64,000 nt of DNA from Bacteroidota bacterium (lineage in GTDB: Bacteria; Bacteroidota; Bacteroidia; Chitinophagales; Chitinophagaceae): the NCBI GenBank assembly GCA_018970395.1, contig JAGWWM010000001.1:124001-188000 (forward strand). Reading direction: 5' to 3'. Shown here in pieces: positions 4,687-20,290 of the stretch. A program made the translations under genes and the position numbers. Each line of letters opens with the position of its first letter. Position 1 is the first letter of the stretch. A model generated the notes under the pieces. That model did not search any database. It saw nothing but the letters and a program-made list of their open reading frames with translations, and had not been told where the DNA came from.

Positions 4687-6522
4687 TTATTCTACCGTCA
4701 CACTTTTCGCCAGATTTCTGGGTTTGTCAACATCAAAACCTTTGGCAATACCCACATAATAGGAGAGCAGCTGTAGTGGTATTACGCTGAGCATGGGTGC
4801 AATGATTTCATCGGCAGCGGGAATTGAGAAAGTAGCATTGCTAAGGGTAGGACTAATCGCATCCCCTTCAGTAATAATTGAAATGACAATTCCTTTTCTG
4901 GCCTTTATCTCCTGCATATTGCTCACGATTTTTTCGTGGTAAGAGTCTTTTGTAGCAATAAAGACAACAGGGAGTGTTTCTGTTACCAGGGCAATCGGAC
5001 CATGTTTCATTTCCGCAGCGGGATAACCTTCTGCGTGTATGTAAGAGATTTCTTTTAGTTTCAGTGCGCCTTCCAATGCTACAGGAAAATTATATCCCCT
5101 ACCAAGGAAGAGGGCATCTCCTGCTTTATCAAAGAGGGTAGCGATTGATTTAATTTGTTCAGCCTGTTGAAGAATCACAGCAACTTTTTCAGGCACTGCT
5201 TCCAGTTCCTGGAGTAGCGTAAGATATTTCTCATTGGTAATTGTTTCTTTTGCTTTCGCGATTTTCAAAGCAACCATTGTGAGTACCGTAAGCTGTCCGG
5301 TAAAAGCCTTGGTACTGGCGACACCGATCTCCGGTCCAGCATGGGTATAAGCTCCTGCGTGCGACAGGCGGGCAATACTGCTGCCCACCGCATTCACTAC
5401 TCCGAAAATAAAGGCGCCTTTTTCTTTCGCATTTTCTAATGCAACAATGGTATCTGCCGTTTCACCGCTTTGTGAGATGGCAATAATCACATCGCCCTCC
5501 TGAATAATCGGATTACGGTATCTGAATTCGGAGGCATATTCCACTTCTACAGGAATGCGACATAATTCTTCTATGATATATTCGGCTACCAAACCTGCAT
5601 GCCAGCTGGTACCGCATGCCACCATGATGATGCGTTTGGCATTGGTGAGTTTATCAATATTCTGCTCCACTCCTGCCATTGTAATCGTTCCTGCCTGAGC
5701 ATCAATTCTTCCTCTCAGACAGTCCTGAATGGTACTGGGTTGTTCGTGAATTTCTTTGATCATGAAATGGTCGTAACCCCCTTTCTCAATGGCCGCTAAT
5801 TCCATATCGAGCTTGGTGATATACGGAGTTACTTTTTCGTTGCCCAGGTTTTTAAGGATGAGTTCATCCGGTCGGACGATTGCCAATTCATAGTCATTTA
5901 CATAGACAACCTCCTTGGTGTATTCAATGATCGGTGAAGCGTCACTGGCGAGGAAATGTTCCCCTTTGCCAATGCCGATTACAAGTGGACTTCCTTTACG
6001 CGCCGCAATAATTGTTTCAGGATCATTCTGGTCAATCAGTAAAATACAATAAGCACCCACTACCCTCTTCAGCGCAATTCGAACCGCTTCTTCGAGTGAA
6101 CAATGATTATTGATTTGAATATCTTCAATAAAAAACAATAAGACTTCCGTATCGGTATCACTGCTAAAGGAATACCCTTTTGAAATCAATTCTTTTTTGA
6201 TGAGGGCATAGTTTTCGATGATACCATTGTGAATCATCGCCAGTTTACCGGTAGGACTAATATGCGGATGCGCATTGCGATCGCTTGGTTCACCATGCGT
6301 TGCCCAGCGAGTATGGCCGATGCCAGTATTGCTGTGCAGATCTTTGCCGATCAGATGCTCTTCCAGATCCGCTACCTTTCCTTTTTTCTTATAGACTTTC
6401 AGTCCGGCATTCAATAGCGCCACCCCACTGCTGTCATAGCCTCTGTATTCAAGTCTTTTCAAACCTTTTAATACAATAGGGTAAGCTTCTCTAGGACCAG
6501 TATATCCGACGATACCACACAT
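4687..6522 (-). CDS. glmS: Glutamine--fructose-6-phosphate aminotransferase (isomerizing)
   Basis: Makes glucosamine-6-phosphate from fructose-6-phosphate and glutamine, the first step towards UDP-GlcNAc for peptidoglycan and LPS; cytoplasmic. The start MCGIVGYTG sets Cys2 as the N-terminal nucleophile after Met removal. The glutaminase domain (1-~220) has HTRWATHG and HNGIIENY. Two SIS domains follow (~290-420, ~460-600), with the active-site stretches SQSGETADT and EGALKLKEISY. The C-terminus ends DKPRNLAKSVTVE, the family's canonical tail. The 611 residues match the usual family length. No glmS ribozyme is seen upstream, as expected outside Firmicutes. Confidence 0.98.
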   Translation of the reverse strand: MCGIVGYTGPREAYPIVLKGLKRLEYRGYDSSGVALLNAGLKVYKKKGKVADLEEHLIGKDLHSNTGIGHTRWATHGEPSDRNAHPHISPTGKLAMIHNGIIENYALIKKELISKGYSFSSDTDTEVLLFFIEDIQINNHCSLEEAVRIALKRVVGAYCILLIDQNDPETIIAARKGSPLVIGIGKGEHFLASDASPIIEYTKEVVYVNDYELAIVRPDELILKNLGNEKVTPYITKLDMELAAIEKGGYDHFMIKEIHEQPSTIQDCLRGRIDAQAGTITMAGVEQNIDKLTNAKRIIMVACGTSWHAGLVAEYIIEELCRIPVEVEYASEFRYRNPIIQEGDVIIAISQSGETADTIVALENAKEKGAFIFGVVNAVGSSIARLSHAGAYTHAGPEIGVASTKAFTGQLTVLTMVALKIAKAKETITNEKYLTLLQELEAVPEKVAVILQQAEQIKSIATLFDKAGDALFLGRGYNFPVALEGALKLKEISYIHAEGYPAAEMKHGPIALVTETLPVVFIATKDSYHEKIVSNMQEIKARKGIVISIITEGDAISPTLSNATFSIPAADEIIAPMLSVIPLQLLSYYVGIAKGFDVDKPRNLAKSVTVE

Positions 6523-6589
6523 ATAATGACTTGATTTTGAAGTACAAAAATAATCTTATCCGGGAGATTTCATAATAGCAGGGAAAAAT

Positions 6590-7999
6590 CTACAAGAGCA
6601 CTCCATTCAAAAAGAGGTATGCCATCGAAAAGTAGATAATCAGACCGGTCACATCAACCAACGTTGCCACAAAGGGAGTGGAGGATGCGGCCGGGTCGAA
6701 CCCCATTTTTTTAAGAAATAAAGGAAGCATTGAGCCCATCAGGGTACCCCACAGTACAATTCCTACCAGAGAAGAGCCAACGGTTAAACCGATTCTTACA
6801 AAATGCTCGCCAAAAGGATTGTCGGGGAAAAAATGCCAGATGGTAATCACGCTGAAACCAATAATGAATAAAGAGGTGCCCAGCAGCAAACCGGATAAGA
6901 TCTCCCTTTTCATGATGCGCCACCAGTCGGCAATGGTAATTTCGCCCAAAGCCATCGCCTGAATAATCAGGGTGCTTGCCTGAGAACCGCTATTGCCGCC
7001 GCTGGAAATAATTAAAGGAATGAAAGTGGCAAGAATAACTACTTTGGCAATTTCATCTTCATAACTCTGCATTGCGCTGATCGTGATTAATTCTCCAAAG
7101 AACAGAATAATCAGCCATACCACGCGTTTCTGAAACAGTTTGAAGATGGGTGTCTCAATGTAGGGCTCATCCAGCGCTTCGGTACCTCCCATTTTTTGCA
7201 TGTCTTCACTGAACTCTTCATTGGCTACCCAAAGCACATCATCAATGGTAACAATACCGAGTAGTTTATTGGATTTACTGATTACGGGAAGGGCGTCCCG
7301 ATTATTCATTTTAAAGACCTCATTCGCGGTTTCCTGGTCATCCTCAGGATGGAGTGCTACGTAACGATCATCCATCAGATCGGCAACTTTTACGGAAGGT
7401 TCACTTAGTATAAAATCCCGGATTTTTATATCATCAATCAGCTCTCCCTTTTCATTGATCACATAAATAACGCTGATGGTTTCGCTGTCTTTTCCGTATT
7501 TTCTGATCGTAGCAAATACTTCCTCAACGGTATTATAGGGATAAACATACACATAGTCGGGTGTCATCAGACGGCCAATACTGTTTTCAGGATATCCCAG
7601 CAGAGAGAGCGTAATTTTTCGTTCGTCCGGATTCAATAATTTAATGAGCTCCCTAACGGCATTACTCGGTAATTCTTCCAAAAAATCGGTACGGTCATCT
7701 GCCGGCAATTCATTTAATAATTCTGCCGTTTTGAAAGGAGGTAATTTTTTGATGATATCTTTTTGAGTGCCGATATCCAGTATTTTGAATACGCCAACTG
7801 CTCGATGATTACTAAGCGCGGAAAGTATAGTTGCTTCCAGCTCGGGATTTTCTTCTATCAATTCCGCAACCTCACTGATATTTTGGTCGTCCAGAAAGTC
7901 AGTCAATGCTTTTCTGTCGCCTGTTTCCAATACTTGCTGGAACTGTTCCGCCAAAGCTATTTTTTCTTCCGTTGCCATTAAACTTTGTATCGGCTGCAA
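6590..7999 (-). CDS. mgtE: Magnesium transporter MgtE
   Basis: Inner-membrane Mg2+ channel. Domain order is typical: an N-terminal superhelical MgtE_N domain (~20-150) with repeated LLNELPADDRTDFLEELP-type helices, two CBS domains (~150-275), and a five-helix membrane domain (~300-469) holding the conserved GGNSGSQASTL and PLFLKKMGFDPA stretches of the pore region. Length 469 is normal. Met8 (7978) is an alternative start and gives MATEEK. The cytosolic N and CBS domains are known to close the pore when Mg2+ is plentiful. The gene is 67 bases upstream of glmS on the same strand; co-transcription is possible but functionally unexplained. Confidence 0.96.
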   Translation of the reverse strand: MQPIQSLMATEEKIALAEQFQQVLETGDRKALTDFLDDQNISEVAELIEENPELEATILSALSNHRAVGVFKILDIGTQKDIIKKLPPFKTAELLNELPADDRTDFLEELPSNAVRELIKLLNPDERKITLSLLGYPENSIGRLMTPDYVYVYPYNTVEEVFATIRKYGKDSETISVIYVINEKGELIDDIKIRDFILSEPSVKVADLMDDRYVALHPEDDQETANEVFKMNNRDALPVISKSNKLLGIVTIDDVLWVANEEFSEDMQKMGGTEALDEPYIETPIFKLFQKRVVWLIILFFGELITISAMQSYEDEIAKVVILATFIPLIISSGGNSGSQASTLIIQAMALGEITIADWWRIMKREILSGLLLGTSLFIIGFSVITIWHFFPDNPFGEHFVRIGLTVGSSLVGIVLWGTLMGSMLPLFLKKMGFDPAASSTPFVATLVDVTGLIIYFSMAYLFLNGVLL

Positions 8000-19443: not shown

Positions 19444-19497
19444 CCCAAAACAAGAAAGCCCATAACTAATTCAAAATAAATTAGTTATGGGCTTTCT
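19444..19497 (-). terminator. Strong rho-independent terminator of the tRNA-like RNA
   Basis: Perfect 19-bp inverted repeat (19479-19497 with 19453-19471) and a 7-base loop. On the minus strand it is followed by TTGTTTT (19452-19446). It starts only 4-5 bases after the 3' end of the tRNA-like structure. The plus-strand side lacks a T run, so it serves the minus strand. Confidence 0.85.
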
Positions 19498-19501
19498 ATT
19501 G

Positions 19502-19673
19502 CTGTAGGGGGAGGAGTCGAACCTCCACGGGGCAGTTAGCTACAGCACAAAGATTAAGTGGTCAACCCTGGTCGGCCTTACCAATGGTAACGTCGGCTCT
19601 ATGCTGCGTTTGTCCTGTGATCCCCACCCTCGAGACGAGAGGGCATGTCTGCCAAAATTTCATCACCCCACAG
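19502..19673 (-). ncRNA. tRNA-like structured RNA with a ~100-nt variable-region insertion
   Basis: Read on the minus strand, the ends fold as a tRNA. The 7-8 bp acceptor pairs CTGTGGGG (19673-19666) with CCCTACAG (19509-19502). A short D-arm follows (ATG/CAT, loop with GGCAGA), then a 5-bp anticodon-like stem CCCTC/GAGGG with a 7-base loop TCGTCTC. The T-arm is canonical: GGAGG-TTCGACT-CCTCC (19526-19510). The D region resembles leucine-type tRNAs. Between the anticodon-like stem and the T-arm lie 100 bases (19626-19527), closed by GGGG/CCCC and containing CAGCATA/TGTGCTG and TTACC/GGTAA hairpins. Loop position 33 is C rather than the near-universal U, so decoding is doubtful. No CCA is encoded. 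It is not a normal tmRNA: no tag reading frame, too short, and it has an anticodon-like arm. Confidence 0.55.
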
Positions 19674-19694
19674 TGTTAAAGAACTATTATGATG

Positions 19695-19726
19695 CAAATC
19701 TATGTAAACAACTGTTTCTTTGCAAA
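19695..19726 (-). promoter_or_regulatory. Promoter of the tRNA-like RNA
   Basis: On the minus strand, TTTG (19726-19723), 20 bases, then TAGATTTG (19702-19695), matching the Bacteroidota -33/-7 pattern. Downstream, between start site and RNA body, GTTCTTTAACA (19684-19674) resembles the boxA antitermination element found in rRNA leaders. Confidence 0.55.
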
Positions 19727-19810: not shown

Positions 19811-20290
19811 ATGGGAGCCAAATTGAATCTTGACAAATTAGACCTCCAGATCATCGCAGCTATGATGGAAGACGCTCAAATATCCTATGCTGACCTGGGC
19901 AAAAAACTATTCGTTTCCGGCGGCACTATCCATGTTCGCATCAAAAAATTACAAGATATGGGCGTGGTTAAAGGAACCCGCCTGCATGTTGACCTCGCTG
20001 CACTCGGCTACGACCTCACTGCCTTTGTTGGCATCTATTTGGAAAAAAGTTCTTTATATGATTCTGTGGCTCAGGATCTTAAAAAAATTCCGGAAATCGT
20101 GCGCCTCAACTATACCACCGGTAACTATAGCATGTTCATCGAAGTGGTGTGTAAAGACATGAGCCAGCTGCGTTATGTGCTACACGACGCTCTCCAGAAA
20201 ATACAAGGCATTGAAAGAACAGAAACCCTTATCTCCCTCGAAGAAAGTTTTAACCGAAATGTGGTGGTGCTGTCCGAGAACGCTGATTAA
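19811..20290 (+). CDS. Lrp/AsnC family transcriptional regulator
   Basis: A 159-residue regulator: an N-terminal winged helix-turn-helix (NLDKLDLQIIAAMMEDAQISYADLGKKLFVSGGTIHVRIKKL), followed by a RAM-type effector/oligomer domain (~65-150) with the conserved TGNYSMFIEVVCKDM. The length and layout are standard. The family senses amino acids or related metabolites; the ligand here is unknown. A perfect inverted repeat just upstream suggests self-regulation. It converges on the ABC exporter gene. Confidence 0.94.
   Translation: MGAKLNLDKLDLQIIAAMMEDAQISYADLGKKLFVSGGTIHVRIKKLQDMGVVKGTRLHVDLAALGYDLTAFVGIYLEKSSLYDSVAQDLKKIPEIVRLNYTTGNYSMFIEVVCKDMSQLRYVLHDALQKIQGIERTETLISLEESFNRNVVVLSENAD

Follow-up and report, generated by a model that had tools for sequence, protein, structure and literature searches.

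Which RNA is encoded by a gene that folds as a tRNA at its ends, carries a long insertion in its variable arm and is called by none of the usual annotation programs? The question is raised by positions 19501-19673, minus strand, of the window, by which we mean the whole stretch of 64,000 nucleotides of Bacteroidota DNA that was analysed. The RNA was found to belong to a widespread, previously unrecognized family of Bacteroidota and some viruses. This family is new and matches no Rfam family, while the pathway logic into which we would place it, the conversion of RNA-bound aspartate to asparagine, is already known.

Architecture of the tRNA-like RNA

The gene and its signals are arranged as follows along the window.

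19695-19726, minus strand: promoter of the Bacteroidota type, TTTG-20-TAGATTTG (from the count of TAnnTTTG in upstream regions)
19674-19684, minus strand: boxA-like GTTCTTTAACA (from the count of the TTCTTTAA motif in upstream regions)
19501-19673, minus strand: body of the tRNA-like RNA, from base -1 (C) to C74 (ends from the family alignment and covariance model R1)
19666-19672, minus strand: 5' strand of the acceptor stem, TGTGGGG, including U1 and G2 (covariation)
19645-19663, minus strand: D arm with G18G19 and the A at the position that we number 20a (covariation alignment and base counts in relatives)
19627-19643, minus strand: anticodon arm, CCCTC-TCGTCTC-GAGGG
19636-19634 and 19632, minus strand: GUC and C38 within the anticodon arm
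19529-19625, minus strand: variable-arm domain with the stems GGGG/CCCC and CAG/CTG, a GGAYAAA/CTAA internal loop and an inner stem (stem covariation)
19560-19567, minus strand: near-self-complementary GGTTGACC element, conserved in long forms
19510-19526, minus strand: T arm, GGAGG-TTCGACT-CCTCC (covariation)
19503-19509, minus strand: 3' strand of the acceptor stem, CCCTACA (covariation)
19501-19502, minus strand: discriminator G73 and encoded C74
19454-19496, minus strand: terminator hairpin of 18-19 bp with T-rich sequence after it

The tRNA architecture is complete, with acceptor, D, anticodon and T arms, U8, A14, G18G19 and the T-loop bases, and T8 was observed in all 124 relatives described below. 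In the window's copy, T8-G9 and a 3-bp D stem with G18G19 can be read from the sequence, and the variable-arm stem GGGG...CCCC closes on 89 nt. The terminator hairpin (19496-19454) begins 4 bases past the end of the body, which agrees with the first-pass annotation, where it had been placed within 5 bases. The leader consists of TTTG-20 nt-TAGATTTG, which we take to match the Bacteroidota promoter consensus, together with GTTCTTTAACA. Of 258 upstream regions, 106 contain TAnnTTTG where shuffles give 10.4 on average, and 79 contain TTCTTTAA with at most one mismatch where shuffles give 27.8.

Processing of the ends in the manner of a tRNA, as had also been suggested, appears likely because C74 is encoded as in the tRNAs of this genome (32 of the 32 other distinct tRNAs examined) and because an ordinary tRNA lies 4 nt away in 15 of the 38 viral stretches that have tRNAs. 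As to the CCA end, 27 of the 32 distinct tRNA genes examined in this genome (G000) encode C74 only and five the full CCA.

No tRNA or tmRNA was called by ARAGORN anywhere in the window. A match in Rfam had been named beforehand as evidence against the proposal; the search gave nothing in the window at gathering score, and permissive settings gave only matches far below it. The Rfam tRNA model RF00005 matched at the relative itself in none of 14 loci holding relatives. We considered tmRNA (RF00023) and rejected it, as neither a model match nor an ARAGORN call falls on the window's RNA and the tmRNA gene of this genome was found elsewhere, in line with the earlier view that the RNA is not a tmRNA. 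The tRNA-like RNA gave one blastn match in its own genome, where ordinary tRNAs including tRNA-Asp are present. No paper on this RNA was among those listed by the literature searches. Current annotation tools overlook it, and the finding adds an RNA to genome annotation.

Distribution of the family

The RNA was detected by blastn in 54 of the 99 genomes searched, the window's genome counted in, with tandem copies in some; runs of four or five copies were noticed in some genomes (L335, L342 and L316). Near relatives occur in two sizes, 155-195 nt and, with a shorter domain, 119-123 nt. The GGTTGACC element is missing from the six short forms examined.

A covariance model located the RNA in 140 of the 248 genomes sampled from the order and, among the matches listed, in 40 of 395 genomes of the phylum. 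Genomes were counted as carriers (RNA-positive) at a best E-value of 1e-18, a line that keeps 140 of 162 genomes with reported matches in the order and 40 of 200 in the phylum; some of the genomes dropped by it hold copies cut by a contig end (G158, G050). Matches that are 83-88 nt long and score under roughly 60 bits were dropped, since their size and score suggest ordinary long-arm tRNAs. A wider set of 124 relatives, 112-207 nt long, was drawn from the best-scoring matches listed. All letter counts given below use this model-derived set, as the anticodon letters of pattern-derived relatives are fixed by the pattern. Since its training set consisted of GUC copies, the model could overlook copies that score lower and have other anticodons. 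It was run on 80 of at least 120 named stretches from a pattern scan. The named carriers confirmed by the model, among the matches listed, include Chitinophaga, Terrimonas, Pedobacter, Mucilaginibacter, Spirosoma and Dyadobacter, and further ones are Cyclobacterium, Algoriphagus, Neolewinella and an Ignavibacteriales MAG.

Evidence for a selected structure

The folding energy of the single sequence is unremarkable (z -1.46, with 16 of 200 shuffles folding as well) and is insufficient alone, so that the case for a selected structure is a comparative one. A MAFFT alignment of 25 copies, built independently of the structure, has 99.1% of its cells paired as against 93.5% in shuffles, and double-sided changes were observed in 14 pairs as against a shuffled mean of 6.6. 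Neither value was reached by any of 500 shuffles. The shuffles were not exceeded in one of the five measures, that of further pair types, where 102 of 500 reach the observed value. For 123 distinct relatives, in an alignment fitted to the model, 96.8% of the cells pair compared with 47-57% for slid partners, and 29 pairs are doubly changed. The covarying stems are those of the acceptor, the T arm and the variable arm. These comparisons indicate that the structure is under selection. They also bear out the first-pass description of an independent tRNA-like RNA with all four arms: the acceptor and T-arm pairs, whose absence in relatives had been named as an argument against it, were found to be conserved, and the long insertion in the variable arm is a real domain with covarying stems.

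The same insert could be taken for an intron that is spliced out of the variable arm of a tRNA. Once most of the insert is removed, the window's copy is called tRNA-Asp(gtc) by ARAGORN, and a compact viral relative (L363) exists. However, the insert's stems prolong the variable-arm stem and covary with that continuity, no self-splicing intron family was matched in Rfam, and the short forms would leave little sequence for an intron of that kind. Truncation is itself a weak test, in which one cut led to a reading as tRNA-Asp in 3 of 38 copies and as tRNA-Thr in 2 of 38, and other cuts gave 3 and 5 of the 32 long copies and none of the 6 short ones. We regard splicing as extremely improbable.

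Conserved nucleotides and tRNA identity

U35, C36, C38, G73, C74 and the pairs U1-A72 and G2-C71 are present in each of the 124 relatives, as is A at position 20a, and G34 is present in 121. Variable positions of the anticodon loop are 32, 33 and 37. U33 was observed in 112 relatives, the C33 of the window being local, while U37 was observed in 114 and a pyrimidine at this position in 118. The passages on identity in PMC9976931 list G73, G34, U35, C36 and C38 as strong aspartate determinants; there, U1-A72 confers amidation specificity, and G1-C72 together with U20a blocks the amidation of Asp-tRNA-Asp. All five letters of this tRNA-Asp set are retained, G34 at 121 of 124 and the others without exception, and the letters of a GatCAB substrate (U1-A72, no G1-C72 and no U20a) were found in 124 of 124. 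As far as sequence can tell, the conserved letters of the family are those of aspartate identity and of GatCAB identity. The earlier idea that descent from a leucine tRNA holds the key to function is unsupported. Among 32 distinct tRNAs examined in the window's genome, T1-A72 occurs only in tRNA-Asn and tRNA-Gln.

The RNA shares with canonical bacterial tRNA-Asp the letters G34-U35-C36, C38, G73 and G2-C71, the bases of the L-shape and an encoded C74. It differs in that U1-A72 replaces G1-C72 and A replaces the U at 20a, in the prevalence of U37, in the usual absence of G10 and in its long variable arm. Two of these differences concern aspartate recognition. The G10 of tRNA-Asp is not kept (A in 99 and G in 11 of 124 relatives), and G1-C72, through which the acceptor end is positioned in AspRS, is replaced by U1-A72 throughout.

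With a GUC anticodon, U33 in 112 of 124 relatives and a place inside viral tRNA arrays, the RNA might be a special decoding tRNA that brings Asp or Asn to Asp codons. We find this improbable, since a pyrimidine occupies position 37 in 118 of 124 relatives, an ordinary tRNA-Asp is present in the window's genome and also in 13 of the 43 viral sequences, all of them partial stretches, and the RNA would cause mistranslation if amidated. A non-decoding role had been argued earlier from C33. That argument fits only a subset of the family, although the role itself is plausible given the prevalence of U37 and the presence of the ordinary tRNA-Asp.

Co-occurrence with GatB and the asparagine enzymes

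If the RNA is a substrate of GatCAB, its carriers need GatCAB. This prediction was set before the search, in which GatB stands for GatCAB. GatB was found in 134 of 140 RNA-positive and 54 of 108 RNA-negative genomes of the order, in 48 of 48 and 2 of 12 within the window's family, and in 23 of 23 and 2 of 25 in other Bacteroidota, all of these counts being uncorrected for kinship and the 25 being the genomes of the class displayed without a strong covariance-model match. The two GatB-positive, RNA-negative genomes of the window's family (G190 and G050) are contig-end cases, and G050 also has the 3' half of the RNA elsewhere; after these two contig-break corrections, GatB is present in 50 of 50 carriers and 0 of 10 non-carriers. 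G349, one of the two corresponding genomes in other Bacteroidota, shares its genus with two carriers. No full GatB was found in six RNA-positive drafts of 290-530 contigs (G147, G165, G167, G204, G228 and G253).

Enzymes were probed with E. coli segments in 30 genomes, namely 20 hand-picked from the 140 RNA-positive ones and 10 RNA-negative ones of the family. AsnRS was observed in all 30 (weakly in G104) and GlnRS in 29 (not in G104). Both are present in 19 of the 20 probed carriers, which leaves GatCAB without an obvious other substrate. An AsnA or AsnB match at 1e-12 was not obtained in 5 of the 20 RNA-positive genomes (G150, G035, G028, G031 and G221). AsnA was found in one of the 20 (G113), together with the RNA and GatB. 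Among the 30 genomes a close AsnB (66% identity) was seen only in G252, which has an AsnC-like gene and neither the RNA nor GatB. Weak AsnB-like proteins, none above 48% identity, were found in 15 of the 20 RNA-positive genomes and in 6 of the 9 RNA-negative genomes other than G252. As these proteins are found in both groups, and in view of G113, the RNA cannot be claimed as the sole asparagine route.

In its treatment of such enzyme sets, PMC4206432 counts Bacteroidetes among the genera in which AsnRS, GlnRS and GatCAB occur together and an Asn synthetase is lacking, and it proposes that asparagine is made on tRNA-Asn. The tRNA-like RNA is a candidate for another asparagine carrier besides tRNA-Asn and, if it is one, would explain why many Bacteroidota keep GatCAB despite having AsnRS and GlnRS.

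The AsnC-like regulator

A protein gene is transcribed away from the RNA:

19811-20290, plus strand: divergent gene for an AsnC-like regulator (from the closest solved protein, E. coli AsnC 2cg4, from NCBIfam and from co-occurrence)

Against solved structures, the regulator scores 113.7 bits with E. coli AsnC and 47.5 with Lrp, and its best NCBIfam match is AsnC at 157.9 bits, under the cut-off of 227. E. coli AsnC controls asnA, and the two genes are divergent with a gap of 151 bases. The two loci are alike in that an AsnC-type regulator is divergent from a gene for asparagine synthesis, a proposed one in our case, with about 150 bp between them; they are unlike in that the divergent gene of the window is an RNA and not asparagine synthetase A.

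All 49 members of the AsnC-like cluster drawn from 80 named loci are divergent from the RNA. In the 80 model-derived loci an AsnC-like gene is close and divergent in 39, and none was found near the RNA in 41, for which mostly 1.2-1.6 kb upstream is covered. None was found in the 43 viral stretches. Among 65 loci that have no AsnC-like gene, the commonest neighbour family was observed in 8. At the level of genomes, an AsnC-like protein is encoded in 139 of 140 RNA-positive genomes and in 26 of the 108 others. Of these 26, which have no full RNA, 23 were inspected (G065, G205 and G277 being left out). In five of them the contig ends within the RNA or its first bases (G190, G050, G158, G183 and G196), and in the other 18 the RNA was not found, some of those stretches ending early.

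Two other arrangements were noticed by eye. In L377 and L378, from two genomes of a different family, the position facing the AsnC-like gene has boxA-like leaders and other long-stem sequences, and possibly holds a different RNA. In L380, L382, L384 and L385, whose family has no tRNA-like RNA in the sampled genomes, a conserved hairpin AATGCTG...TGATGAGGAGC...CAGCATT lies upstream of the AsnC-like gene.

Proposed role

We consider it probable that the RNA is a dedicated carrier, probably a non-decoding one, which AspRS charges and GatCAB converts to Asn-RNA, so that asparagine is supplied under AsnC control. Once expressed, the RNA would receive aspartate on its CCA end from AspRS, which would read G34-U35-C36, C38 and G73. 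GatCAB would then read U1-A72, meet no blocking G1-C72 or U20a, and convert Asp-RNA to Asn-RNA. Asparagine would be set free, most simply by ester hydrolysis, for use by AsnRS and the rest of metabolism. Because an Asn-RNA bearing GUC would misread Asp codons as Asn, it would have to be kept from the ribosome, and the long variable-arm domain together with the pyrimidine-37 loop probably bars it. The divergent AsnC-like protein probably sets the supply of the RNA by sensing asparagine, as judged by analogy with AsnC and asnA of E. coli. Of all this, the analysis demonstrates the structure, its conservation, the identity letters, the gene layout and the co-occurrence, while the steps from expression through charging and amidation to release, the exclusion from the ribosome and the control by the AsnC-like protein are inferences.

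If this is true, a tRNA relative, probably non-decoding, is dedicated to making an amino acid, and the asparagine source of these bacteria becomes directly testable. We see about even grounds for and against calling it a new RNA class, in which a reusable RNA coenzyme for a free amino acid takes up aspartate, is amidated to the asparagine form, is barred from translation by its variable-arm domain, is regulated by an asparagine sensor and is carried by viruses of these bacteria as a metabolic gene.

The proposal has parallels in known systems. Similar to tmRNA, the RNA is tRNA-like and would be without the usual decoding of sense codons, and 7 of the 43 viral stretches receive a tmRNA call from ARAGORN. 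However, tmRNA carries alanine letters, whereas the window's RNA has aspartate letters, full D and anticodon arms and no tmRNA call. Glutamyl-tRNA serves tetrapyrrole synthesis, where a tRNA-bound amino acid is likewise a metabolic intermediate, but that tRNA also decodes and here a separate RNA is proposed. Among the closest known systems is tRNA-dependent Asn synthesis by AspRS and GatCAB on tRNA-Asn, which the sections of PMC4206432 on this route describe for Deinococcus, Thermus and Bdellovibrio. It has in common with our proposal an aspartyl acceptor with U1-A72 and the presence of AsnRS and GlnRS in the same genomes. On that route aspartate is loaded onto the decoding tRNA-Asn by an AspRS that is either non-discriminating or a second one, whereas we propose a separate RNA with aspartate identity (GUC), a large extra domain and an AsnC-like linkage.

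Viral copies

Pattern matching gave 44 viral contigs, 42 with a full copy and two with a copy cut by the end of the stretch, whereas blastn against phage and plasmid collections gave no match. Among the 43 viral stretches with a match above 100 nt, 38 have tRNAs, and the nearest tRNA was on the same strand in all 38. Viruses carry such an RNA among their tRNA genes. When positions 33-38 were left free, the viral scan gave 26 contigs, of which 25 were already known and one has a compact relative, also with GUC. This relative (L363:4526-4620, minus strand) is about 94 nt long, is called tRNA-Asp(gtc) by ARAGORN and scores 67 bits with the model; its anticodon loop, TTGTCTG, has G at position 38.

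The viral neighbourhoods bear on a reading of the RNA as a serine acceptor, for which its long variable arm and G73 would be suited. Of the 38 viral stretches that have tRNAs, 29 have a tRNA-Ser as the closest one, and both G73 and G2-C71 belong to the bacterial Ser set in the part of PMC9976931 that concerns it. That set includes C72, whereas A72 is found in 124 of 124 relatives, and serine acceptance leaves the conservation of GUC and C38 unexplained. Such a role seems very unlikely to us.

A perfect palindrome of at least 8 nt was observed after GACCAC in 28 of 36 viral copies (for example L239, L252, L254 and L259) against 2.7 expected, and its sequence varies. In bacterial copies, palindromes of at least 8 nt occur there in 8 of 57 (4.1 expected) and of at least 6 nt in 14 of 57 (14.0 expected), so that the strong signal is a viral one. 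The viral palindromes suggest that these RNAs may dimerize via self-complementary loops.

Dimerization would suit an RNA with a regulatory or scaffold role that binds both AspRS and GatCAB, for instance as the RNA core of an asparagine transamidosome or as an AsnC-coupled sensor of aspartate charging, and that provides no route to free asparagine. The large variable-arm domain, which is conserved together with its internal loop, would suit it as well, and the coupling to AsnC and GatB fits any role in Asp/Asn balance. The invariant U1-A72, G73 and C74, in turn, suit a charged substrate better than a passive scaffold. We hold this alternative to be unlikely. The generic regulatory or scaffold function of the first-pass annotation is unsupported, the partners being specifically the AsnC-like regulator and GatCAB, and it is kept here in this more specific form beside the asparagine carrier that we prefer.

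A second kind of viral RNA was also noticed. It has tRNA-like ends (TAGTCAGG... CCTGACTAC), cores that differ strongly between copies and an overall length of 116-151 nt, and on some contigs it is present in several copies:

L246:5129-5277, 6477-6617 and 7682-7831, minus strand: second viral RNA kind
L250:4331-4446 and 4906-5050, plus strand: second viral RNA kind

The same kind was observed in L249, L271, L272, L274, L275 and L278.
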